Of a stretch of DNA of 64,000 bases, positions 29,954 through 42,255 are shown one piece after another. Origin of the DNA: Actinomyces johnsonii (GTDB taxonomy: Bacteria > Actinomycetota > Actinomycetes > Actinomycetales > Actinomycetaceae); NCBI RefSeq assembly GCF_006546835.1, contig NZ_VICB01000019.1, positions 3,070 through 67,069 on the forward strand, given 5' to 3'. Position 1 is the first letter of the stretch. Each line of letters starts with the position of its first letter. The notes beneath the pieces are model-generated. The model was not told the DNA's origin and searched no databases. It saw nothing but the letters and a program-made list of their open reading frames with translations. The translations under genes were made by a program, and so were the position numbers.

Positions 29954-30634
29954 TCAGGTGCTGACTAGACGAGTGGAGACTCTGGCCTTCCTGCTCATTC
30001 CGGCGGGCACGTTGAAGGGTGTCGGCGTGGCGCTCGCACTGGGGGCGGACTTGGCGTCCTTCTTCTGAACAGGGGCCTTTGCCTGGGAGCGTTTTGTCAC
30101 ACACGTTCCATTGATCTCGAAACCGACTTGGCCGTCGCTGAGGCAGGCTCCATCCTCAGGCACGATCTTGGCGGTTGAGGTTGCAGTGAGTCGCTGGTCT
30201 GTGCCGGTCACGGCCGACTTGGTACGGACCGACACGGTGACAGTTCCCTGGGTCGTGTCCACGGAGTATGCTGTGAGTGTTGCCCCGTCCAGTGAGGCGT
30301 AGCGTTCCGCCGCTCGCTTAGCTCCCGGACCGGCGAAGGTGCCGAGTCCCCTGCCGGCATTACTCCAGAGACCGTCCTCGCTGGTGGCGTCCACGGCGTT
30401 TCCGTAGGTCGACTCGATGGAGCCAGCCCAGGCCCGTGCGGCGGCCAAGGCAGCCGCATCTGCCGCGTTGCTTGCATCGCGACGGTGGAGGATCGCATCC
30501 CCCAAGCCGGTCATGAGGCCCAGCGCCACAAATGCCACAAGTGCAGCGGCTACGCTGACGTAGGGGAGGATACTGCCACGTTCGTTAGACACCGTTTGAG
30601 AAAGCCGGATGTGTTTGCGTGGTGTTTGAGACAT
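29954..30634 (-). CDS. TadG-like Flp pilus assembly protein
   Basis: 226 residues. A short basic start, then the membrane helix GSILPYVSVAAALVAFVALG and the TadE/G-type HRRDASNAADAAALAAARAW that follows it in this family. The rest is extracytoplasmic, ending in a Lys/Ser/Pro-rich tail. The glutamate at position 5 after the processing glycine in TadE proteins is absent here, consistent with a TadG-like minor component. Last gene of the tad operon, 9 bases after the OmpA lipoprotein gene. Confidence 0.75.
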   Translation of the reverse strand: MSQTPRKHIRLSQTVSNERGSILPYVSVAAALVAFVALGLMTGLGDAILHRRDASNAADAAALAAARAWAGSIESTYGNAVDATSEDGLWSNAGRGLGTFAGPGAKRAAERYASLDGATLTAYSVDTTQGTVTVSVRTKSAVTGTDQRLTATSTAKIVPEDGACLSDGQVGFEINGTCVTKRSQAKAPVQKKDAKSAPSASATPTPFNVPAGMSRKARVSTRLVST

Positions 30635-30643
30635 AGTGGTTCC

Positions 30644-32350
30644 TCAGCTGTTCTTGATGGGGATGTCGGTGAGGCGGTAGGCGGTGTCTTTGAGGGAGTA
30701 CTTGCCTTCGAGGTGGTCGAGGATGATGGTGTCGCCGCCGGGGTCGGGCCAGGTGACGCAGATGGTGGTGGTGCCGGCTTTGAGGTGGTCGAGGAGGCGT
30801 AGTTCGGTCAGGGGGAGGTGCTGCTCGGCGTAGGCGTCGAGGTAGTCGGCAGGGAAGATGCGTTCGCCTCCGGCGATGAGGGTCAGGCCGTCGCTGGCGA
30901 GGAAGGTTGGTAGGGCTCCGCCGTCCTCGGATCGTTGGTTGGCCAGGAATGTCTGGGAGTCCTGGAGGAGGGGGTGCAATGGTGCGCCGGTGGAGCCGTC
31001 TTTGACGGTGCAGATGACGGTACCCAGGAGGTAACCGCCGGTTCGCGTGACGTAGTCGAGGCTGATGGTGACCTCTCCGCTGGTGCTGCTGCTCTTGGAA
31101 GTGAGGGTGACGCCCTCGGAGCCCTTGGCGACGGGGCCCTGTGGGTCCGGCAGCTTGCCGCTGCCATTGCTGGGGGTGGTGGTGGTATTGCTGTCTTTGG
31201 GGGTGGCGCCGCCGATGGGGGTGAGGGTGATCTCGACGCGGCGGTTGGTGGCTCGGGCCTGGTCGGTGGTGTCTTTGACCTTGGGCTGGCTCTCGCCCTT
31301 GCCGGACACACTGGTCTTCCACTTGTCGAGGCTGGTGAGCTGCTGGAGCCGGTCCTTGACGGCGTTGGCGCGTTTGTCGGAGAGGGTCTGGTTGTAGGCG
31401 TCGTCCTGGATGTCGTCGGTGTGGCCCACGATGGTGAGTGTCCCGCCGTCGGGGTGCTGCTTGAGCTGTCCGGCCACGGTCTGGAGCTGGGTGTCGGCGG
31501 CGGGGGTGAGGTCGGCAGAGTCGGGGGTGAAGGTGACATCGCTGGCTAGGGTGACGGTGATGTCCTTGCCGCCGGCCTGGGTGCTGGTGGAGTCGTCCAG
31601 GGTGCGGGTGTAGCGCTCGATGGCGACGGGGGCGGCGAGCTCGGTGGCGGCGCGTGGGTATTGGTCGATCACGGTTTGGGCGGTGCTCAGGTCGATGCCG
31701 GTCTTTTTGGCGGCGTCGGCTTCCAGGACCGAGACGGTGGTGAAGCCGGCCATGGGGACCAGGACGGTGACGGTATCGGTGTCGACCTTGCCGAAAGACA
31801 GATAGGAGGTGGTCTTCTCGCCGGGGGTGACCTCCAGGAATCCGTCGTTGTCGGCGCCGCTGCCGTCGGTGGCGCTCCACACGCGCCCGGAGCCCAGGTC
31901 GAGGAGCTTGACTCCGGAGGCCCCGGTGCCGGGGCGGAAGATGGACGGGACTCCCAGGTAACTCGAGATATTGAGCTTGTTGCTGTTTCCGCTGTGGGAG
32001 TTGGCGTTGACGTCGTCGATGGAGGCGTCGTCCTTGGCGCGGGTCAGCTTCAGCGCGATGATCGAGGTCTTCTCGTCCTTGCGGATGACGGGGGAGACCT
32101 CCACGGTCACGTTGTGGCCCATGATGTGGGCGTCGAGCTTCTGCCAGTCGGTGTTGCCGGCCTTGGCCGTGCCCTTGGCTGAGGCTGACCCGCTTGCCGG
32201 GGCCGAGCCCTTGCCTCTCGACGCGCCCGGCAGGTCGCAGCCCGCCAGCACCGACAGCCCGAGTCCCGCCAGGACCGAGAAGACCACAAAGGACCGACGA
32301 GGCAGCGCCCTCGAAGGGACACTGAGCGAACGGAAGAACACAGAGGACAC
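30644..32350 (-). CDS. OmpA-domain lipoprotein in the tad operon (paralogue 2)
   Basis: 568 residues from a GTG with CTAGGAG upstream. Lipobox LAGC (Cys38); family-specific N-terminal domain (TDWQKLDAHIMGHNVTVEVS); OmpA/MotB domain (VTFTPDSADLTPAADTQLQT, TIVGHTDDIQDDAYNQTLSD, ATNRRVEITL); then a C-terminal domain ending TAYRLTDIPIKNS. Known OmpA domains bind peptidoglycan, so it may tether the pilus machine to the wall. In Gram-negative tad loci an OmpA-like domain occurs on TadG-type components; finding it as a lipoprotein beside a TadG-like gene suggests a split of the same job. Paralogous to the copy downstream of rplA. Confidence 0.83.
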   Translation of the reverse strand: MSSVFFRSLSVPSRALPRRSFVVFSVLAGLGLSVLAGCDLPGASRGKGSAPASGSASAKGTAKAGNTDWQKLDAHIMGHNVTVEVSPVIRKDEKTSIIALKLTRAKDDASIDDVNANSHSGNSNKLNISSYLGVPSIFRPGTGASGVKLLDLGSGRVWSATDGSGADNDGFLEVTPGEKTTSYLSFGKVDTDTVTVLVPMAGFTTVSVLEADAAKKTGIDLSTAQTVIDQYPRAATELAAPVAIERYTRTLDDSTSTQAGGKDITVTLASDVTFTPDSADLTPAADTQLQTVAGQLKQHPDGGTLTIVGHTDDIQDDAYNQTLSDKRANAVKDRLQQLTSLDKWKTSVSGKGESQPKVKDTTDQARATNRRVEITLTPIGGATPKDSNTTTTPSNGSGKLPDPQGPVAKGSEGVTLTSKSSSTSGEVTISLDYVTRTGGYLLGTVICTVKDGSTGAPLHPLLQDSQTFLANQRSEDGGALPTFLASDGLTLIAGGERIFPADYLDAYAEQHLPLTELRLLDHLKAGTTTICVTWPDPGGDTIILDHLEGKYSLKDTAYRLTDIPIKNS

Positions 32351-32456: not shown

Positions 32457-32672
32457 TTACTTCAAATTCTCGATAGCATCCTTGATCTTTTTGATGACGG
32501 CGTCTCCGATACCAGACCCGTTTGCGGCGGCGATAACAAGGCCAATAATCGCTGCCGCGACGAGGGCAATGCCGGCGTACTCGACCATTGTCTGACCGCG
32601 CTCTCCATTGCGAAGGTTGATCCAGGCCTGCTGGAGACGAACCTGAAGGCGGAGAAGTGCGTTGTTGTTCAT
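32457..32672 (-). CDS. flp: Flp-type major pilin
   Basis: 71 residues. A basic leader ends in GERG, and the mature protein starts QTMVEYAGIALVAAAIIGLV: cleavage after Gly gives Glu at +5 and Tyr at +6, the Flp pilin signature. One hydrophobic helix and a short C-terminal helix complete it. The ATG has the best ribosome site in the locus (GGAGGTTACCC). Assembled by TadA/B/C into the Flp pilus after processing by the prepilin peptidase encoded upstream. It has its own 113-base leader, and its expression is probably the highest of the locus. Confidence 0.93.
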   Translation of the reverse strand: MNNNALLRLQVRLQQAWINLRNGERGQTMVEYAGIALVAAAIIGLVIAAANGSGIGDAVIKKIKDAIENLK

Positions 32673-32785: not shown

Positions 32786-33415
32786 CTACTGAGCAGAGGG
32801 CGGCGACAACCAGACGGCGACCGCCTCAGCGCGGCTGTGGACGTGCAGTTTAGGGTAGGAACTGTTGAGGTAATTTTTAACTGTACGCTCTGACAGAAAA
32901 AGTTGCTGGGCGATCCTGTGGTTAGACATGCCGGTCGCAGCCAGGTCGAGGATCTCAGCCTCCCTTTCCGAGACCCGCGCACGCAAAGGGTTACTAGAAA
33001 CGTTATGAGCCGACGGATTGAGCACGACATCGGCGGCTTCCTTACCGAGCACCAGGCCTCCGTTGCGGCAGGTCTCAATGGCGCTGGTCACCTCATTGAT
33101 ACCCAACTGACCATGAACCAAATAGCCGCGTGCGCCGGTGTCAAGCGCCTGGCGGATAGTGCCGGGGTCTCGATTTGAAGTGAGCATAATGACCGAGGCG
33201 TCGGTACTCAGTTCTGGGAGGATGTCAAGTCCGCTGCGCCCTGGAGGCATGGAAACGTCAAGTAGGATGATGTCGGGGTAGTGTATGTGGTGTGCCTCGA
33301 GTGCGGAGAACGCATCCTCCGCCTCGATGACCTCATTCACAGCATCAATATGGTCGAGTACCGAGCGGAGTCCGATGCGGACAATAGCGTTGTCGTCAAC
33401 GACCATCACTTTCAT
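32786..33415 (-). CDS. NarL/LuxR-family response regulator of the tad locus
   Basis: 209 residues. Receiver domain with Asp7/Asp8 acidic pocket, phospho-acceptor Asp53 (DIILLDVSMPPG) and Thr79 (MLTSNRD); the usual switch lysine of GYLLKD is His101 (GYLVHGQ). The C-terminal LuxR-type HTH is RVSEREAEILDLAATGMSNH RIAQQLFLSERTVKNY. Overlaps the histidine-kinase gene by 4 bases, so they are a cognate pair. By position it probably controls the pilin gene that follows directly. The His-for-Lys change is unusual and may alter activation. Confidence 0.88.
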   Translation of the reverse strand: MKVMVVDDNAIVRIGLRSVLDHIDAVNEVIEAEDAFSALEAHHIHYPDIILLDVSMPPGRSGLDILPELSTDASVIMLTSNRDPGTIRQALDTGARGYLVHGQLGINEVTSAIETCRNGGLVLGKEAADVVLNPSAHNVSSNPLRARVSEREAEILDLAATGMSNHRIAQQLFLSERTVKNYLNSSYPKLHVHSRAEAVAVWLSPPSAQ

Positions 33416-34650
33416 ATTATCTTCTCCTTGTTAGTAGTGGTGTGAAGCGATGCGATAGGGACGCGAAGTCGAACACGGGTCCCCGCAGTCAGTTCGGAGA
33501 GCGAATCGATACTGAAGGCGCCGTTCAGTGTTAAAGAACGTTCCTTTAAACCTGCCAGTCCGTAATGCCCCTCTCGGTAGAGGTCTTTGACATCCTTTCC
33601 GAGACCGATGCCGTTATCGCGGACGTCGAGGCGGAAGCAGCTGTCGTCGTGGAGTATTGAGAGGTCAACTGACGTGGCATGGGCGTGTTTCTCAATATTG
33701 GCAAGGATCTCGCCCAGGATGCGCTGAAGCTGCCACATCGCCTCGGTCGAGCAGGGGAGAGGTGCGTTCGAGTCGGTGTGATTGATGGAGATCGATATGC
33801 CTGTGCGCGCTCCCCATCTGGTGGCTTCCTCGACAAGAGCGCCAACAATATCCTCGCCGCCCCCGGAACGCAGCCCGTCAAGGACGAGCCGGGCTTCCCT
33901 GCTCGCTTCGTCCGCGGACTCGAGAAGCGTGTGACTGAGTGGGGTTTCTGGGTGGTTCTCAGCGCTGAGAGAGCTTTCCAGGGATTCGGCGAGCATGCGA
34001 ATACCGTGGACGCTCTTAGCGAGCGAGTCGTGCAAATCTCTGGCAATCGTGAGTCTCTCGGCGGTGGCGCGTTCTTCTGCTCGGGCGAATGCAGCTTCGG
34101 CGGAGAGGCAACTGATTTCCATGAACTGGCTGTTCAGTCGGTTCCCGAGCAGAACACTAAAGAAGATTCCGGCAACCATGGTGGCGGCCACAACTGTGGA
34201 AATTGAGGCGTCATGTAACTTAAGGAGTGCGAGTGATAGGGTGGCGCCGACGCTCCACAATGATGCCCAGAAGGCTTGGCTTACAAGGCCGATGAGTACC
34301 GATGATGCGATAAGATAGGCAAGAGAAAGAGCAAGGCCTCCCGGGAATGTTGCAGGAAGAGTGCTGGTGATGACGCAAGTAATGACAAGGTCAGTGCATA
34401 TGTAAATCCAGTTGTCGACAATGAGGTCTGGGTGTTTATTGAACACTCTCAAAGTTGCCCAGTTGATGCTTAGTCCCAGGAGGGGAACCGCAACAGCTCC
34501 TCTGTCGGCGCTTGATGCAATGATTCCGAGTTCGCAAGCCAGGATGAGTCCAAGCCGTATGTCGCAGATCAGAGCCACTGCGGTAAAAAGGGCGTGGTGG
34601 TGAATGAATCTTGATGGGGGTTGAGAGTCTTGTGAATTAGTTTCCTGCAT
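33412..34650 (-). CDS. Membrane sensor histidine kinase (HisKA_3 type)
   Basis: 412 residues. Six or so membrane segments (residues about 20-175) with very short loops, no large outer sensor domain; then a helix with the phospho-acceptor His207 in ERLTIARDLHDSLAKSVHGI, and an HATPase domain with DVRDNGIGLG and GHYGLAGLKER. This is the NarX/DesK-like class. The ATG starts one base past the tadC stop (TGAAATG); a TTG four codons earlier is possible. Membrane state or pilus assembly status may be sensed, but no ligand is evident. Confidence 0.88.
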   Translation of the reverse strand: MQETNSQDSQPPSRFIHHHALFTAVALICDIRLGLILACELGIIASSADRGAVAVPLLGLSINWATLRVFNKHPDLIVDNWIYICTDLVITCVITSTLPATFPGGLALSLAYLIASSVLIGLVSQAFWASLWSVGATLSLALLKLHDASISTVVAATMVAGIFFSVLLGNRLNSQFMEISCLSAEAAFARAEERATAERLTIARDLHDSLAKSVHGIRMLAESLESSLSAENHPETPLSHTLLESADEASREARLVLDGLRSGGGEDIVGALVEEATRWGARTGISISINHTDSNAPLPCSTEAMWQLQRILGEILANIEKHAHATSVDLSILHDDSCFRLDVRDNGIGLGKDVKDLYREGHYGLAGLKERSLTLNGAFSIDSLSELTAGTRVRLRVPIASLHTTTNKEKII

Positions 34651-34651
34651 T

Positions 34652-35542
34652 TCATCCGCCAAATAGTTTCGCGATAGTGTCCTGATTGGCGAACACCATT
34701 CCTCCGAGCATGAGGATCATGGCGCCTGGAACCATGGTGGTCGTGGCGATGAGTGCTACCTTGGGCTGTGCCTTAGCCGCAGCGCGGCGGACCTGCTGGG
34801 CGCGTTCGCGACGAATCTCCTTGACGATCGACGTAAGGGCGTCGCCGATAGGGGTTCCTAATTCTTCGGACTGGAGGAGTGTGGTGACGAAGTTGTCGAT
34901 ATTGTTGGAACGGCAGCGTTTCTTGAGAGACGTGAAGGCGTCGCGTCGAGAAACTCCGAGTCGCATCTCATGAAGTGTTTTGCGCATTTCCTCGGCAATG
35001 GGGCCATCGAAATGGTTGCAAACTCGTTCTAGTGAACTACGAAATGGCATTCCTGAACGTACTGTAATGGCAAGAATGTCCAGGAAGTCGGGTAGGTCTC
35101 GGTCGATCGCTGTCTGTCGCTTCTGAATAGTTTGAAAAAGCCAGAGGTACATCCATCCTGAGAATACCGTCCCAAATGTTAATCCGTAGATGGGGTGGCC
35201 TAACAGAGTGAACACTGCTACAAGAAGGACGCTGAGGGAAATGAATCCCGCCTCCCTCTGGATGAATAGGTCGAGGGTGAGGCCTTCTGGGTTACCTGCA
35301 TTTTTCAGGTGTCGATCGAGTGTTTTTCGGTGGAGTGGCCCATAGAGGCGGCGGAGAGTCTGCTGTGTTCTGATGCCAAGTGCGTCAACCAGTAGGACAA
35401 ATCCGCTTTTTCGTTCGACCTTCATGTCGTCGTTGGCGGCGATTCCAAGCTGGCTAGTGCCGTCATCCTTGATGAGGTGGATTCCGTAGGCGGCAAGGAG
35501 TACCACGAATGCCGCTGTGGCGGAATATACTATTGCGGGCAT
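34652..35542 (-). CDS. tadC: Flp pilus inner-membrane platform protein TadC
   Basis: 296 residues of the T2SS-F family. N-terminal helix, a cytoplasmic segment, paired helices (SLSVLLVAVFTLLGHPIYGL), the GspF-like core (DLPDFLDILAITVRSGMPFR; GVSRRDAFTSLKKRC) and a C-terminal helix MVPGAMILMLGGMVF. Works with TadB as the platform that TadA acts on. One base separates it from tadB on one side and from the kinase gene on the other. Confidence 0.9.
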   Translation of the reverse strand: MPAIVYSATAAFVVLLAAYGIHLIKDDGTSQLGIAANDDMKVERKSGFVLLVDALGIRTQQTLRRLYGPLHRKTLDRHLKNAGNPEGLTLDLFIQREAGFISLSVLLVAVFTLLGHPIYGLTFGTVFSGWMYLWLFQTIQKRQTAIDRDLPDFLDILAITVRSGMPFRSSLERVCNHFDGPIAEEMRKTLHEMRLGVSRRDAFTSLKKRCRSNNIDNFVTTLLQSEELGTPIGDALTSIVKEIRRERAQQVRRAAAKAQPKVALIATTTMVPGAMILMLGGMVFANQDTIAKLFGG

Positions 35543-35543
35543 G

Positions 35544-36470
35544 CTACACCTCCACCCGGGAGACGATCTTCATGAGCAGGGCTCCGATTCCAAAACAGAT
35601 GAGTGACACGGCAAGGATGATTCGACCGATGGATGACGATGCCATTTCGTCTAAGACTCCCGGTTTCATCATGTTCATGAGGATGATGGCCACGAGGCCG
35701 ATGATTGGGACCAGGTAGGCGCTGAAGGCTGAACCGATGATGGCGGTCCGGACTTCGCGGTGCAACTGCTTGCGGTCCTCAAGGGCGAGGGCGATGTCAT
35801 GCAGTGCGCCGGCCAATGCTCCTCCCGCTGTGGACTGGATGATGATCGTACGTACAAGGACATTCAGTTCGCGTGAGGGCATCCGTTGAGCGAGGTCGGA
35901 GAGCGTCCCGTCCAAGGACCATCCAAGCGCGAGCTGTGATGTGGCCCGGCTGAGTTCGGCTCGTGCCGGATCCGACATCTCTTGCGCAGCCAGAGCGAGG
36001 GATCGTTCTATGGACACTCCCGCGGATGTGCCGTTAGATAATATGCGGGAGACCTCCGGGAGCTGGGCGATGAATCGTTCCACTCGTTGAGCCGTGCGGC
36101 GACGCAACCATCGGAAGAACACCAAGGGAATGAGTGCCGCCAGGATGCTGCCGGCTATCTGTCCGATTAACGGGCGCGCCAGGAAGAACGTTGCGATGAT
36201 TGCCGTGATGAGAACCAGTTCGGTGATGGCTATATCCCAGCTCAGCCCGGCGCCGGACATCTTGCGCTTCAGTGGTTTACTGAAGGGCAGATGGCGAATC
36301 AAGACGAGAATACTGCTCCCCGCCCCCACTCCCTGGGCGATATCTGTGGCTCCGAGGCCTTGCGCGAGCTCGGTGGTGCGCCCCGCGTTGGCGGACATGG
36401 TGATGACTGCGGCGCTTCCGATAATGATGGTGACCGCGCCACACAGATAGATCGTGAAAGCGCTGTTCAT
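35544..36470 (-). CDS. tadB: Flp pilus inner-membrane platform protein TadB
   Basis: 308 residues of the T2SS-F family. N-terminal helix, two central helices (ELVLITAIIATFFLARPLIG), the cytoplasmic GspF domain (RFIAQLPEVSRILSNGTSAG; TSQLALGWSLDGTLSDLAQR) and C-terminal helices. Overlaps tadA by 4 bases. Partner of TadC in the membrane platform. Confidence 0.9.
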   Translation of the reverse strand: MNSAFTIYLCGAVTIIIGSAAVITMSANAGRTTELAQGLGATDIAQGVGAGSSILVLIRHLPFSKPLKRKMSGAGLSWDIAITELVLITAIIATFFLARPLIGQIAGSILAALIPLVFFRWLRRRTAQRVERFIAQLPEVSRILSNGTSAGVSIERSLALAAQEMSDPARAELSRATSQLALGWSLDGTLSDLAQRMPSRELNVLVRTIIIQSTAGGALAGALHDIALALEDRKQLHREVRTAIIGSAFSAYLVPIIGLVAIILMNMMKPGVLDEMASSSIGRIILAVSLICFGIGALLMKIVSRVEV

Positions 36471-37774
36471 TGTACCACCTCTTTGATGAGAAGATTTCTG
36501 GGGAGTGTTAGTCCGTGCTGGTGAATCCGATCCGCCATGGTCTGAGATATGCCATGGAACTCGAAGCGTCCCTGATCTCGCTGGACGGTGTGGACGTATC
36601 GCATCATGAGTGAGGTCGTATAGTTCTCATGGTGTCGCGAGGTCACTGCCTCGATCGTGTTGACCCGCCTTATGCCGGCGGAGTCGCGTTCCAGCTGGAT
36701 AATGACATCGATGGCGCCGTTGATCTGATCTCTGACGGTCTCGACCGGCAGCGTGACATCAGACATGGAGGACAGCGTCTCCAGACGGCTTAGCGCATCG
36801 GTTGCGGAGTTGGCGTGCACGGTGGTCAGTGAGCCCTCGTGACCGGTGTTCATCGCCTGGAGCATGTCGAGTGTCTCTCCGCCGCGGACCTCGCCAACGA
36901 TGATGCGATCGGGGCGCATACGCAGTGAGTTTCTCACCAGATCCCGAATCGTCACCTGCCCTGTGCCCTCGGTATTGGCCGGACGCGCCTCCAAACGGAC
37001 CACGTGGGGCTGCTGCAGGGATAGCTCGGCGGCGTCCTCAATAGTGATGATCCGCTCTCGATCCGAGATCATCCCGGACAGTGCATTGAGGAAGGTGGTT
37101 TTTCCGGATCCGGTCCCGCCGGAGACGAGAATGTTGAACCGAGCGGCTACCAGCGCGCCCAGGAGATTAGCGGCTTCCTGGGGCAAGCTGTTTCGAGCGA
37201 CGAGATCGGAGAGACGGAAGGGCTGAGGGAACCGTCGGATGGTAATGGTCGGTCCGTCGAGCGCCAGCGGCGGAATGATGACATTGACACGTTCTCCGCC
37301 GGGGAGACGTGCGTCCACCATGGGGCTGGACTCGTCCACGCGGCGGTTGACCGAGGAGACGATGCGGTCAATGAGCTGATACAGCTCGGCCTCGGATGTG
37401 AAGCGAGTGGGGACTCTTTCGATCCGTCCGGATCGCTCAATGAAGACGTCCTCCACACCGTTGACCATGATCTCGGTGACGGAATGATCTGCGATGAGGG
37501 GTTCGAGCACCCCTAGCCCAACGGCGTCGTCGATCACTCGTTTGACGAGCCAGGCCCGCTCGCGGGGCGACATGACAGGGCCCTCGAGGGACAAAAGTCG
37601 TGAGAGCACCCGTTCCAGACGGGCTCGCTGCTGGGCGAGCTCTAGCCCGGCGACCTCTTCAAGGTCGATCTCATCCAGCAGCCGGGTTCGGTAGAGGGCC
37701 ACTAGGTCCTCTCGGCTGCCAGTTGACTGCCGTTTTCCTCCTTGGGGCTGGGCGACCCGATCTCGTAGTGCCAT
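36467..37774 (-). CDS. tadA: Flp pilus assembly ATPase TadA (CpaF)
   Basis: 435 residues, secretion-type ATPase of the TadA/CpaF branch. Walker A SGGTGSGKTTFLNAL; Asp box ITIEDAAELSLQQPHVVRLE; Walker B region RPDRIIVGEVRGGE; the conserved NTGHEGSLTTVHANSATDAL. The N-terminal helical domain and PMVDARLPGGERVNV motif are typical. Drives pilin polymerisation on TadB/TadC. Only one base separates it from the preceding tadE-like gene. Confidence 0.95.
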   Translation of the reverse strand: MALRDRVAQPQGGKRQSTGSREDLVALYRTRLLDEIDLEEVAGLELAQQRARLERVLSRLLSLEGPVMSPRERAWLVKRVIDDAVGLGVLEPLIADHSVTEIMVNGVEDVFIERSGRIERVPTRFTSEAELYQLIDRIVSSVNRRVDESSPMVDARLPGGERVNVIIPPLALDGPTITIRRFPQPFRLSDLVARNSLPQEAANLLGALVAARFNILVSGGTGSGKTTFLNALSGMISDRERIITIEDAAELSLQQPHVVRLEARPANTEGTGQVTIRDLVRNSLRMRPDRIIVGEVRGGETLDMLQAMNTGHEGSLTTVHANSATDALSRLETLSSMSDVTLPVETVRDQINGAIDVIIQLERDSAGIRRVNTIEAVTSRHHENYTTSLMMRYVHTVQRDQGRFEFHGISQTMADRIHQHGLTLPRNLLIKEVVQ

Positions 37775-37775
37775 C

Positions 37776-38192
37776 TCAGCGCTCAGGGAAGTAGGCCGTG
37801 CGTGTCACGGTGATGTGCTTACTGGTAATCGATGGGATGCCGATCGGAACCCGAGCGGTGACCTGAACACAGTGACCGGAACCGCAATCGTCCGACACGG
37901 ACTCCAGCCGTACCCAGGCAGGTAGGGCTTTGTGTGCTGCCTGCTCGGGTGAACGCCCCAGCATTGCCGCGCGAGCGCCGTCTCGGGCGGCTGCGCTGAC
38001 GGAGGTGACCGTGGAGACGGCGAGGAAGCCCTGAACGAGGAACATGGTGACCAGGACCAGAATCGGCACGAACCCAATGAGTTCAATATCAAGGACGCCT
38101 TGCTCATCGTGACGTAGGCGGTTGATCAGGCGCTTCGGGGACGAGGTGAGACAGGTAGAGCGGGCGGCTGTGGTTGTGGTCGTAGTACTCAT
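37776..38192 (-). CDS. TadE-like minor pseudopilin
   Basis: 138 residues. A Thr-rich basic start, then the cleavage-type motif EQGVLDIELIGFVPILVLVT: with cleavage after Gly, Glu is at +5 as in TadE/TadF pseudopilins. The outer domain has two cysteines (DDCGSGHCVQV), probably a disulfide. The ATG overlaps the preceding fusion gene's stop by one base (TGATG); the longer upstream frame is the shadow of that gene. Expected substrate of the TadV-type peptidase. Confidence 0.83.
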   Translation of the reverse strand: MSTTTTTTAARSTCLTSSPKRLINRLRHDEQGVLDIELIGFVPILVLVTMFLVQGFLAVSTVTSVSAAARDGARAAMLGRSPEQAAHKALPAWVRLESVSDDCGSGHCVQVTARVPIGIPSITSKHITVTRTAYFPER

Positions 38193-39730
38193 CACTTCTC
38201 CCAGACGATTCCGGCACTTGCAGACGTATCCATATCGACAACGGAGAGGACCGGTAACGTGACGGTCACCCTGTCCGCGCCGGAGCGTGTCACCTTGGTG
38301 CGTGCGGCATAGCTGTTGGGCAGGCGACTGGTGACCTCCTGCTGCACCTGACCCGGGCTCTTCCCGATGCCGTAGGCGTGAGCCGCCTCGTTGGCGGCAT
38401 GTGTGGCGTACATGTAAGAGACTCCGATGCTGAGTGCTTGGATGCACATCAGAATCACGACGGTGGCCAAGGCGAAGACCACAGGGAACTCCACCGTGAT
38501 CTGGCCCCGCTCCGAGCGGCGACGCTTGCGACCTCGTCGCGAGACCTTGGTCGAGCTGTCCGCCATGCTCCGATCGGGAGCACTGCCAGGGCTTGGCGCC
38601 GTTCCAGCCACGATGGCGCCGGCAATGGACCGGGTGGCTTTAGCCATGGCGGGAACCTTCGATGTCAGCAAGGTATTGGAGTTGACGGCCATCTCGATCT
38701 GAGTCGTCAGATCGGGAATGCTGGCCGTCAGCGCCACTCCCGTCATTTTCGCGGCGGTGGCCGGCTGGATCTCACGTTGCCGGCTGGTCAGGTTGACCAC
38801 CAGTCCGAAGGGGCGTCCACGGGCGATATCGAGACGGTCGAGCGCGTCGCTCAGTCTGCGTACCGAGCGCAGAGCGGGCGCATCGGGGGTTGCGACGATG
38901 AGGGCTCGATCGGCGGAGTCGAGTGCCATGGCCAGGATGTCGTCAAGCCGGTTGCCGCAGTCCAGGACCACGTGGTCGAACTGGTATCGCAACATGGTGA
39001 GGATCTGCCGCGTGGCCGACTCCGTCAGCATCTCACCGGCCTCTCCCTGCTCCGGGGCGGGCAGGAGCGCGATCCCACCGGGGAGGGGATACATGACCTC
39101 GGAGATCTCTCTGGCGCTGACTTCCGCCGCGATGTCGGCCAGGTCGGCGATGGACCGGCGCACCGAGATCCCGGTCATGGCGGCGAGATCACCACCGCGG
39201 ACGTCGAGATCTACCAGGCAGGTGCGAGCTTCCTGAGCGAGCTGAGCGGCAGCCATGAGCGCGACCGTCGAGGTGCCCACGCCGCCCTTGGCACCGACGA
39301 CGGCAGTAATCGTGCCTTGGCGACGAGCGGTGACCTCTTCCCGGCTCGAGGCTTCGCTGCGAACCGCCCGCGACCACGCCAGGACCGGGAGCAGGCGGTT
39401 CGTGATCTCCTCAAGCGACAAAGGTAGCCCCAGCACGGTCCGTGCCCCGGCGTCCATCGCCGCCACAACGCTTTCGGAGGTGCGAGTCCGGCTTAGCAGA
39501 ACAATGGGAATGAGTGGGTAGGTGCGGGAGAGTTCTTGAACAGTGGGCAGGGCGATGCGCCCCTCCAACGCCTCGTCGACCAGAATGCACGATGCGACGT
39601 CCGGCTCCAGAAACCCTCTCAGCTTCTCAGGCGATGCGACAGTACGGACTTCGCCAAGTTCCTCAGCCTCGGCCATAGCCGCCAGCACCTGTTGGCGGGT
39701 CTCCTCATGATCGGTCATCAGGTACTGCAT
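38192..39730 (-). CDS. TadZ (CpaE-like) ATPase fused to a TadE pseudopilin
   Basis: 512 residues in one open frame. Residues 1-120: atypical receiver-like domain. Residues 140-380: MinD/ParA-type ATPase with deviant Walker A AVVGAKGGVGTSTVAL (residues 143-158), CLVDLDVRGGDLAAMTG and HVVLDCGNRLDDI. Residues 388-410: Lys/Arg-rich linker. Residues 410-512: TadE-like pseudopilin RGQITVEFPVVFALATVVIL with Glu at +5 after the processing glycine. TadZ localises the pilus machine in the cytoplasm and TadE is a membrane pseudopilin; normally they are separate genes. An internal ATG at Met389 exists but its GGAG lies one base away, too close for normal initiation. Peptidase cleavage after Gly409 would separate the two parts. 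Confidence 0.88.
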   Translation of the reverse strand: MQYLMTDHEETRQQVLAAMAEAEELGEVRTVASPEKLRGFLEPDVASCILVDEALEGRIALPTVQELSRTYPLIPIVLLSRTRTSESVVAAMDAGARTVLGLPLSLEEITNRLLPVLAWSRAVRSEASSREEVTARRQGTITAVVGAKGGVGTSTVALMAAAQLAQEARTCLVDLDVRGGDLAAMTGISVRRSIADLADIAAEVSAREISEVMYPLPGGIALLPAPEQGEAGEMLTESATRQILTMLRYQFDHVVLDCGNRLDDILAMALDSADRALIVATPDAPALRSVRRLSDALDRLDIARGRPFGLVVNLTSRQREIQPATAAKMTGVALTASIPDLTTQIEMAVNSNTLLTSKVPAMAKATRSIAGAIVAGTAPSPGSAPDRSMADSSTKVSRRGRKRRRSERGQITVEFPVVFALATVVILMCIQALSIGVSYMYATHAANEAAHAYGIGKSPGQVQQEVTSRLPNSYAARTKVTRSGADRVTVTLPVLSVVDMDTSASAGIVWEK

Positions 39731-40449
39731 CAGTTTGCTCCTTGGGCGGGAGTTCCGGGGTTGGCGGAGTACTCGGGGATTTGGGCGCTGCCCTGGTCGC
39801 CGTCCCGGCGCAGAAGGAGACGGACCTTCGTAGAGAAGCTCTCGGCGTAGGCGAGCTTGAGCGACTGCTCGGGTGTCAGCGAGAAGGTCACCGGGACGCT
39901 GTCCTTCTCCTCGGAGAAGTTCCCATTCTCGTCCTTGTCCTGGACCTTCGTGGTCACACCGACCTCGGTGATGAGCGCGTTCTGGATGATGATCTCGGCC
40001 TTCTGCCCCTTGGTGTTGGGGTCCTCCACCGTTGAGACGATGTCGACTCGGGAACCCGGAGTGACCTTGCCGGCGACGCCGGTTTCGGCGTCGATCATGA
40101 TCGACACCTCGCGATATCCCTCCGCCAGCTGTGGAGGGTCCTGCAGCATGCTGGTCTGCAGCACCGCTCCCTTGTTGTAGGTGGACGCTGCCACCTTGCC
40201 CTTGAGGTCATTGACGTCATGGATGGCATCGTCGGGAACCCACCGCTTGGGAACCTGTTCGGTTACCACGTCGGCCGCAGTGACCTCCTTGAGCTCGTTC
40301 ACCTGCTGCGACAGTTTGAGGACGGTCGTCATCGGGCCGACTTGCGATGAGATCGACTGGACGTAGCTGAACATGGCCACGAAGGTGACCACTGCTCCGA
40401 GGGCTGTGACGAGGATGAGTAGGACGCCTCGCCGTTGACGCGGATTCAT
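39730..40449 (-). CDS. CpaB/RcpC-like Flp pilus assembly protein
   Basis: 239 residues from the ATG giving MNPRQRRGVLLILVTALGAV (one membrane helix). A SAF-like domain follows (VTAADVVTEQVPKRWVPDDA and AASTYNKGAVLQTSMLQDPP), then the RcpC/CpaB segment REVSIMIDAETGVAGKVTPG SRVDIVST. Such proteins sit outside the membrane and help pilus assembly, perhaps binding wall glycans. Overlaps both neighbours (1 and 4 bases). Confidence 0.85.
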   Translation of the reverse strand: MNPRQRRGVLLILVTALGAVVTFVAMFSYVQSISSQVGPMTTVLKLSQQVNELKEVTAADVVTEQVPKRWVPDDAIHDVNDLKGKVAASTYNKGAVLQTSMLQDPPQLAEGYREVSIMIDAETGVAGKVTPGSRVDIVSTVEDPNTKGQKAEIIIQNALITEVGVTTKVQDKDENGNFSEEKDSVPVTFSLTPEQSLKLAYAESFSTKVRLLLRRDGDQGSAQIPEYSANPGTPAQGAN

Positions 40450-41306
40450 TGGGACTCCTTGATTGGGTGGGGGGCGGAAGCGCGGGGCGCCCGTGTGGAT
40501 ACGTTGGGCCATGTGCCGCACAGGAGACATCCCTGTGGGACGGCCAGTTGACCGCAGTAGGGGCAGAAGGTCCGGGTGAGGGGCGCAAGCGCCTGCGACA
40601 CAAGAGGACCGGGGTCGGTGATGAGCATGGTCATTTCCGCCCAAGACTTGGCCGGCCAGGTGCGAGACATGGGGAGCAGGGGTTCTCGGTGGAGCCCCAG
40701 AGAGGGCAGGCTGCCTGTGACTCGGTTCTGCTCGTCGTCCGCGGCCCAGATCGCCAGGCCTCCCTGAGGCGGCTTGTTCCAGACCACGTCTTTGACCTTG
40801 GTGACACTGCTTTGCGCCTCACCCAGGTCGAGGGTGAAACAAGAACCCGGCATCATCGACTGCAGGTGCTGCCCGATGGTGGGTGAAGGGCTGGTGAGCC
40901 TGCTGACCGAGCTGAGAGCGACCCTTGTGCGTAATGCGGGCTGCAACGCGTTGACCACTGTCTGCGCTTGACCGTAGGCCCGGGGGTGAAGCTGCAGCAG
41001 GCAGTAGGCCAGCGCGCGAAAACGCGTCTCTGGTTCATTCAGAGCCAGGATGCCGAGGTCCTTGCGTTTGAGGATCCCCCGAACCATGCGAGCGGCGTGC
41101 TCCTCCTCCCCGGTGCGGCACAGCAGTAGGGCTGGTCCCTGACCGGACCGCTGGAGGATGGTGACGGCTTGCCCCATGTCCCAGTCCTTAGTGGCGTCCG
41201 GGCGGGGCCGGGAGTCGGCGAGTACAAGCATGAGAGGCCTTACGGTGTCGTGACTCTGCAAGGGGAGGAGTCGATGGGATCGGGTGGGTGGAAGGGGAGG
41301 CGGCAT
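40446..41306 (-). CDS. Zinc-ribbon protein of the tad operon, function unknown
   Basis: 286 residues from the ATG chosen; a TTG 16 codons earlier and an ATG 25 codons later (MLVLADSRPRP) are alternatives. The main body is soluble with no membrane helix and looks alpha/beta (QAVTILQRSGQGPALLLCRT; KRKDLGILALNEPETRFRAL). The C-terminus carries a four-cysteine zinc ribbon, FCPYCGQLAVPQGCLLCGTW. It overlaps cpaB by 4 bases, so belongs to the tad transcript. I know no named Tad component of this shape. Confidence 0.7.
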   Translation of the reverse strand: MPPPLPPTRSHRLLPLQSHDTVRPLMLVLADSRPRPDATKDWDMGQAVTILQRSGQGPALLLCRTGEEEHAARMVRGILKRKDLGILALNEPETRFRALAYCLLQLHPRAYGQAQTVVNALQPALRTRVALSSVSRLTSPSPTIGQHLQSMMPGSCFTLDLGEAQSSVTKVKDVVWNKPPQGGLAIWAADDEQNRVTGSLPSLGLHREPLLPMSRTWPAKSWAEMTMLITDPGPLVSQALAPLTRTFCPYCGQLAVPQGCLLCGTWPNVSTRAPRASAPHPIKESQ

Positions 41307-41371
41307 GGTTCTGAGCGGTGGTCGTCGCTGGGCCAGAAAGTTACGAAACGGCAACGATTAGGTGGTGTGAC

Positions 41372-41442: not shown

Positions 41443-42255
41443 TCAGACGATTGTCAGCGGCCAGGTGAGCAGGGTGCCGGCGATGAGGTAGGGGCCGTAG
41501 GCCATGGGGTCTTTGCGTGACGCCCGGTGGGTGATGAGCAGGAACAATGCGCCGATCCCACCCAGGAAGACTCCGGTACACAGTCCGAAGACGAGCAGCC
41601 AGGGGTTGAGCCACCCCAGCCAGAGGCCGATCACTGCGCCGAGCTTGACGTCTCCTAGCCCTAGGCCGGTGTGGGCGAACGCCAGGGCCAGGCTGATGCC
41701 GCCCACTGCCAGTGCGCAGAGCGCTGCGGTGAGGGCGGTGTGAGTCCTGTCGGGATCTAGGACGACGGCGACCACACCGCATATGGCCAGCCAGGCGGCG
41801 GTGGCGCCCAGCAGGCGGTTGGGGAGGAGGTGTGCCACGGCGTCGACGCTTCCGGCGCATCCGAGCAGTGCGTACACGGGGATGGCGGTGAGTGTTGTGG
41901 TGGTGGCGCCTATCCGTCCCCCCCACCAGGCGCAGATGAGGCATAGGGTCAGGGCCAGCAGTCCTTGGGGTACTGCGTTGAGGAGGCCGGGATGTTTCAG
42001 TGTCGGACACTTGGGTGAAGCGGGAGGGGCGGAGGAGGTCCGTGAAGGCGTCCGGGTGTCCTCTCGTGCGTCGGTCGTGACGTCGTTCGCGGCGTCTTGC
42101 GGGGCGTCCGCCGCGGAGCGGACGCCGGTATCAGTCGTGTTCTCGTTGTTGAAGGGCTCTCGCACGTAGCGCCTTGTCCACGCGGAGACCGGACCGGCGA
42201 TGAGTGCGACGGAGCCGAGTGCCGCAGCGCCGAGTAACCAGGGTTGGAGAGACAT
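41443..42255 (-). CDS. Prepilin peptidase, TadV/CpaA type (A24 family)
   Basis: 270 residues. N-terminal helix, an unusual hydrophilic insert of about 60 Asp/Asn/Thr-rich residues (30-90), then six hydrophobic helices. The two catalytic aspartates of A24 peptidases are visible in GSVDAVAHLLPNRLL and in the GxGD motif GLGLGDVKLGAVIGLWLG. It would cleave the Flp pilin and TadE-like leaders after the conserved Gly. No methyltransferase domain, as usual for TadV. Confidence 0.88.
   Translation of the reverse strand: MSLQPWLLGAAALGSVALIAGPVSAWTRRYVREPFNNENTTDTGVRSAADAPQDAANDVTTDAREDTRTPSRTSSAPPASPKCPTLKHPGLLNAVPQGLLALTLCLICAWWGGRIGATTTTLTAIPVYALLGCAGSVDAVAHLLPNRLLGATAAWLAICGVVAVVLDPDRTHTALTAALCALAVGGISLALAFAHTGLGLGDVKLGAVIGLWLGWLNPWLLVFGLCTGVFLGGIGALFLLITHRASRKDPMAYGPYLIAGTLLTWPLTIV

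Follow-up and report, generated by a model that had tools for sequence, protein, structure and literature searches.

The window analysed here, a 64,000-nucleotide stretch of an Actinomyces johnsonii contig (NZ_VICB01000019.1), carries a tad pilus gene cluster in which tadZ and tadE are joined in one gene (38192..39730, minus strand). This gene reads as a single 512-residue frame (54.4 kDa) from an ATG, with AAGGAG lying 7 nt on its 5' side, to a TGA stop, which bears out the intact frame claimed in a preliminary description that gave no strand. One-base TGATG overlaps connect it to cpaB upstream and to a tadE-like second pseudopilin gene downstream.

The encoded protein is ordered as a receiver-like domain, a ParA/MinD-type ATPase domain of the TadZ/CpaE kind, a lysine- and arginine-rich linker, and a TadE-type pseudopilin. 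The receiver-like domain (residues 7-113; 39392..39712, minus strand) scores 35.8 bits with Pfam Response_reg (cut-off 30.2), and the PDB entries that match this part in sequence, 4dad (residues 1-113) and 4dn6 (residues 1-108), are named pilus assembly-related or CpaE. The ATPase domain (residues 141-315; 38786..39310, minus strand) lies above the cut-off of Pfam ParA, matches AAA_31 over residues 141-299 with 47 bits (cut-off 27), and carries the P-loop GAKGGVGTST; residues G146, K148 (the P-loop lysine), G149, G150, D174 and D176 are invariant in a 27-row alignment. The N-terminal part thus has a receiver-like N-terminus, an ATPase with the signature lysine and a tad cluster setting, all features of TadZ/CpaE. 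NCBIfam model TIGR03815 (Ssd, CpaE_hom_Actino) gives the window protein 62.8 bits, below the curated cut-off of 154.45, and, judged by this score, its TadZ part is not that equivalog.

The variable linker (residues about 381-408; 38507..38590, minus strand) ends in a K/R-rich tail ahead of Gly409 (codon 38504..38506, minus strand), after which a prepilin peptidase is predicted to cut (RG/QITVEF, the slash marking the cut here and below); motif and basic linker are both present as the preliminary description had them. Cleavage at this point would give a TadZ piece of 43.5 kDa and a mature TadE of 10.9 kDa (residues 410-512; 38195..38503, minus strand). The class III site, G/xxxxE, is followed by a hydrophobic stretch with a mean hydropathy of 2.39 over 18 residues, and the 409 residues ahead of the predicted cut fall outside the short-leader range of 6-51 residues given in the available part of a review (PMC6916266). 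Pfam PF07811 (TadE) reaches 17.2 bits on residues 409-450, under its gathering score of 22.9. Because this score is sub-threshold, the TadE assignment rests on homologues: PF07811 scores 32.4 bits on the fused relative L044, and the TadE half occupies the place of the free TadE-type gene of unfused relatives. On another fused relative, L066, PF07811 gives 20.9 bits. The mature part is also covered by a TadE profile derived from our own alignment, which includes the window protein.

Surrounding tad cluster

The cluster lies on the minus strand and begins upstream with an A24 prepilin peptidase gene (41443..42255; PF01478, 31.3 bits, cut-off 26.5), followed by an ORF that lacks a Pfam match, a cpaB/rcpC-like gene (39730..40449; RcpC 71.3 bits, TIGR03177 108.6 bits with a cut-off of 71; start picked by eye), the fused gene, the second pseudopilin gene in the TadE2/TadF position (37776..38192; 138 residues, EQG/VLDIEL), and the motor ATPase gene tadA, or cpaF (36467..37774; T2SSE 238.6 bits; best match TIGR03819 with 342.2 bits, under the cut-off of 373.15). 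Downstream of tadA come genes for a tadB-type platform protein (35544..36470; T2SSF 62.5 bits), a tadC-type platform protein (34652..35542; T2SSF 81.6 bits), a histidine kinase (33412-34662) and a LuxR-type response regulator (32786-33415), both assigned with Pfam and placed between tadC and the pilin, then a Flp-like major pilin, an OmpA-family lipoprotein-like protein and a TadG-like protein (29954..30634; PF13400, the Pfam family Tad, 32.8 bits, cut-off 22.3). The Flp-like pilin (32457..32672) was recognized by its motif, NGERG/QTMVEYAG, behind a 26-residue leader; it lies above the cut-off of no Pfam family, the best being DUF4244 with 19.1 of 27 bits.

PF01478 is matched once in the genome of the window, by the peptidase of this cluster, 1.7 kb upstream of the fused gene, and an A24 peptidase is present in all 37 genomes picked among carriers of fused or separate genes. 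The 302-residue ORF between the peptidase and cpaB genes (40446-41354), which has no Pfam match, may encode a Tad component of actinobacteria that has yet to be described. The histidine kinase and LuxR-type regulator within the cluster (32786-34662) suggest dedicated control of the pilus. The OmpA-family gene (30644..32350; PF00691, 70 bits), with a lipobox-like LAGC by eye, sits between the genes of the Flp-like pilin and the TadG-like protein.

Fused and separate genes in relatives

Relatives were collected by searches of the family (213 genomes), class (148), order (297) and phylum (198; seeded with a Solirubrobacterales homologue), with loci taken as best matches, and by a scan of named genomes covering the best 80 of 518 relatives. 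Loci were scored with two profiles, for the TadZ and the TadE part, made from the 27-row alignment (A1); a TadZ score of at least 250 and the removal of identical TadZ stretches reduced 194 loci with a TadZ match to 94 genes. The same stop-free frame carries TadE in 66 of these 94 distinct genes of the Actinomycetota TadZ subfamily, the window gene among them, a share that is not a prevalence since the set was seeded with fused proteins and drawn from lists of best matches. TadZ is separate in 27 genes, and in one (L161) the frame runs off the contig end and is hence scored neither as fused nor as separate. Two of the 27 (L061 and L063) lie on contigs that end after tadZ; the 25 split relatives with the region in view all have the order tadZ, tadE1, tadE2.

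Counting best matches, at least 27 of the 213 genomes of the window's family have a fused locus. Named members with a fused gene belong to Actinomyces, Cellulomonas, Isoptericola, Actinotalea, Aeromicrobium, Actinomadura, Kineosporia, Nocardioides, Janibacter and Phycicoccus, and metagenome-assembled genomes (MAGs) of Solirubrobacterales and Egibacteraceae have fused genes as well. The closest named relatives among the matches listed, from which nearer records may be left out, are three strains of Actinomyces oris, with 92-93% identity at the protein level. The preliminary description had assumed a fusion confined to Actinomyces, which is ruled out by the fused genes in several families. It had also held that related genomes with two genes and a stop between them would speak against a true fusion. 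Such relatives exist (27 of the 94, mostly in the Streptomyces group), but they do not refute it, because the fused state is the one found in 66 of the 94 and is represented in every main branch of the tree described below. The claim of a true TadZ-TadE fusion holds, with TadE in the same frame in these 66 genes and the prepilin-peptidase site conserved.

Two further observations concern individual loci. Genome G537 (97% complete, 7% contaminated) contains two different fused TadZ-TadE genes, L148 and L164, at a distance of about 13 kb on a single contig. In a Solirubrobacterales MAG (L066:7950-10103), the fused protein extends at least 207 residues beyond the TadE match, up to the contig end, and includes by eye a stretch resembling NlpC/P60 peptidoglycan hydrolases, YDCSGSTSFV, for which Pfam gives no match; L044, from the same order, has 160 residues beyond TadE, in which no motif of this type was seen by eye. 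A plasmid collection, searched at E 1e-10, contained no match.

The TadZ parts were placed in a quick maximum-likelihood tree (104 rows, including 10 outgroup rows; support by one method), and every main branch of the subfamily contains fused genes. Fused genes make up 28 of 31 in one branch; in the other, its groups have 3 of 3, 3 of 6, 6 of 6, 23 of 24 (the 24th being L161, labelled separate in the tree although its frame runs off the contig) and, for the Streptomyces group, 3 of 24. Of the remaining separate genes, family f20 has three and family f44 a pair; the last is L025, which has a very long branch and shares its genus with the fused L029. The three fused genes nested by the tree among the largely split genes of the Streptomyces group (L114, L115 and L127) are again or still fused, and could serve as pairs for a comparison of the two states. 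With L161 left aside, parsimony needs at least 6 state changes, or 7 if the outgroup is counted as separate. With equal costs, the root of the subfamily comes out as fused (6 versus 8 steps), and it does so too when losses cost double (10 versus 11), which suggests, short of proof, that fused is the older state within the subfamily. A recent chance fusion in the strain of the window is ruled out by this tree, within the limits of a quick reconstruction with one support method.

The predicted cut site and the fate of the fusion

Aligned to the TadE profile, all 66 fused proteins have glycine immediately ahead of the cut (P1), with glutamate at +5 in 65 and aspartate in one. The same pattern is found in the free TadE1 proteins (glycine and +5 glutamate in 25 of 25) and in the second pseudopilins (glycine in 90 of 90, +5 glutamate in 89 of 90), a tally that leans to the fused relatives because the profile was built from them. 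A cruder regular-expression pass had found no motif in two of the 66 (L058 and L155) and chosen another nearby residue in nine; the profile-guided pass places a glycine in all. The linker beyond the end of the TadZ profile varies from 6 to 234 residues (median 28) among the 66, and the cut site is kept throughout. Counted from the start of the TadZ profile, 387 to 617 residues precede the cut in the fused set, compared with leaders of 6-51 residues in the accessible text of the review (PMC6916266), a length that counts against the cleavage proposed below.

The 24 residues ahead of the glycine have a median net charge of +5 in the fused proteins (range -4 to 11). The C-termini of the 27 separate TadZ proteins also have a median of +5, and those of 78 other TadZ proteins +2; the separate TadZ of L118, L120, L122, L151 and L152 lack a strongly basic tail (-2 to +2). 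By the positive-inside rule, basic residues are expected before a membrane helix. The similar tail charge of fused and free TadZ is weakly consistent with a TadZ that would end near the cut point, as the positive-inside rule alone would ask for basic residues there.

We consider it likely that the gene makes a TadZ-TadE polyprotein cut by prepilin peptidase, in which the "leader" is the 409-residue ATPase. TadZ, with its receiver-like domain and ParA/MinD-type ATPase, would be made first and remain in the cytoplasm. The hydrophobic stretch of TadE would then insert with its N-terminus inside and its C-terminus outside, leaving the basic linker on the cytoplasmic face, and the cluster's own A24 prepilin peptidase would cut behind Gly409. 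The products, released 1:1, would be a mature TadE of 103 residues and a TadZ of 409 residues that ends in a basic tail, and TadZ would be born at the membrane, beside the peptidase and the assembly platform. From the topology it follows that the ATPase would be membrane-bound until cleavage. The preliminary description had gone further and proposed cleavage as a regulatory switch, for which we find no support, a plain peptidase-cut polyprotein explaining the same data.

A peptidase-cut polyprotein may have no benefit. The fusion could be the outcome of neutral operon drift, in which the peptidase splits the product anyway, stops are gained or lost without effect, and the fused state has no function of its own. 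This account shares cleavage with the polyprotein reading and differs from it only on benefit, so that the confidence placed in the two overlaps. The state has changed at least six times (seven with the outgroup), counting in the fused L114, L115 and L127 within the Streptomyces group; the linker is hypervariable; and in 13 of the 25 unfused relatives a candidate tadE1 start overlaps the tadZ stop (nine of ATGA/GTGA type, four of TGATG type). The fused state nevertheless prevails over most of the tree, and drift alone is not obviously able to keep it. Repeated change of state points to neutrality, wide retention of the fusion to a benefit; overall, we regard neutral drift as a serious possibility with rather less than an even chance of being right.

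If TadE were instead a bare membrane anchor for TadZ, the topology would fit, and a parallel would exist in the PilM-PilN fusion of Clostridioides difficile reported in the review, which in the part available also asks what keeps the monoderm Tad sub-complex together (PMC6916266). A pure anchor should need neither the P1 glycine nor the +5 glutamate, and would have no need to keep them; the glycine is present in 66 of 66 fused proteins, as is an acidic +5 residue, and their conservation speaks for a cut site over an anchor. Sister lineages, moreover, possess free TadE1 genes. Some of the fused protein may nonetheless stay uncut. We think it unlikely that the TadE half acts as an anchor alone.

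Ribosomes could also begin a normal short-leader TadE inside the gene, next to the full fusion. The preliminary description had named Met389 as the only internal start and called separate translation poor, since GGAG lies one base from it. GGAG is indeed 1 nt upstream, but Met389 has company, with in-frame ATG347, TTG354, ATG362 and GTG374 also preceding the cut. Of these, ATG362, preceded by a weak AAGG at 8 nt, would leave TadE with a 48-residue leader; better sites occur in a few relatives, such as L154 (AGGAGGT, GTG) and L147 (AGGAG, ATG). When a Shine-Dalgarno-like start is defined by at least 4 pattern bases at a spacing of 5-10 nt within the 56 codons ahead of the cut, 18 of the 66 fused genes have one; with other stretches of these genes as background, 24.8 would be expected. 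No single site recurs across the 66. The separate tadE1 genes, a positive control, have such a start in 15 of 25. At a threshold of 5 bases the figures are 5 of 66 (6.4 expected) and 11 of 25. In the split genes, a candidate tadE1 start gives a leader of 10-23 residues in 23 of 25, the exceptions being L055 and L121. Nine of the 66 fused genes have no ATG, GTG or TTG at all in the 56 codons, where 1.6 would be expected, a scarcity for which the amino-acid make-up of the linker may account.

Counted per ATG, a small excess appears: 8 of 31 ATG codons ahead of the cut have a 4-base match, compared with 50 of 436 elsewhere. At 5 bases the counts are 1 of 31 versus 7 of 436, and when ATG, GTG and TTG are taken together, 22 of 137 ahead of the cut have a 4-base match versus 238 of 1642 elsewhere. 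The eight sites are in L001, L003, L005, L065, L145, L146, L147 and L160, with ATG362 of the window one of the eight, and since L001, L003 and L005 are close relatives, related sites are counted more than once. Measured by gene counts, with the same genes as background and the split genes as control, the idea that TadE generally arises from an internal start is unsupported. The earlier verdict on separate translation is thus upheld as a general rule and qualified by the excess per ATG, and we hold internal initiation to be improbable. A lost stop or frameshift that joins two genes by an annotation or sequencing error has next to no chance of being the explanation; the relatives refute it, with 66 distinct fused genes from many assemblies of the phylum, none of them interrupted by a stop between the TadZ and TadE parts.

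Relation to known pilus systems

Both halves belong to known families, and the fusion is a variant within the Tad system, not a new kind of system. With the TadZ/CpaE pilus-localisation ATPases, the window protein shares the receiver-like N-terminus, the ParA/MinD-type ATPase with a deviant P-loop, and the tad context; unlike them it is not free and continues into a pseudopilin. TadE and TadF pseudopilins are reportedly cut by TadV, as Tomich and colleagues are said to have described in 2006. The window protein has their G/xxxxE site, hydrophobic stretch, small C-terminal part and neighbouring second pseudopilin, but its pre-cut part is a whole 409-residue ATPase, not a leader of tens of residues.

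PilM is a cytoplasmic protein and PilN spans the membrane. The PilM-PilN fusion in the type IVa pili of C. difficile likewise joins a cytoplasmic to a membrane protein, although the families differ from TadZ and TadE, and the review, in its available part, mentions no prepilin-peptidase site between them (PMC6916266). Another actinobacterial fusion in a Tad operon is the TadB-TadC protein of Micrococcus luteus tad-2, in an organism described as having no TadZ orthologue (PMC4322843, in the portion at hand); there the partners are both platform proteins instead of an ATPase and a pilin. In Mycobacterium tuberculosis, tadZ and tadE are separate genes, according to the accessible text of PMC9531140. 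A search of full-text literature, outside which most subscription papers and preprints fall, returned no description of a TadZ-TadE fusion, which is not proof that none has been published; nor is one described in the available parts of PMC3244431, PMC6916266, PMC4322843, PMC10191384, PMC11300603, PMC5696575 and PMC9531140.

If the cut happens, a prepilin peptidase would accept a leader about eight times the longest of the 6-51 residues covered by the portion of the review at hand (PMC6916266), and a folded ATPase at that. The definition of a class III signal peptide would then change, and signal-peptide tools that focus on the N-terminus could miss such pilins. What keeps the parts of the monoderm Tad assembly complex together, and whether TadZ takes part, is named as an open question in the same available text (PMC6916266); cleavage of the fusion would give a direct handle on both the cohesion of this assembly and the role of TadZ. 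As fused and split genes occur in sister lineages, what the fusion does can be tested directly.

A wider reading can be offered tentatively, and we would call it doubtful as it stands: prepilin peptidase may also mature TadZ-TadE in much of Actinomycetota, the pseudopilin ferrying TadZ to the membrane, where it would be freed only at an active peptidase, and the placement of the pilus would thereby be tied, molecule for molecule, to pseudopilin maturation. If release by the peptidase is true, it may explain how the Tad machines of monoderms, which do without the additional Tad proteins found in diderms, keep the ATPase together with the platform.
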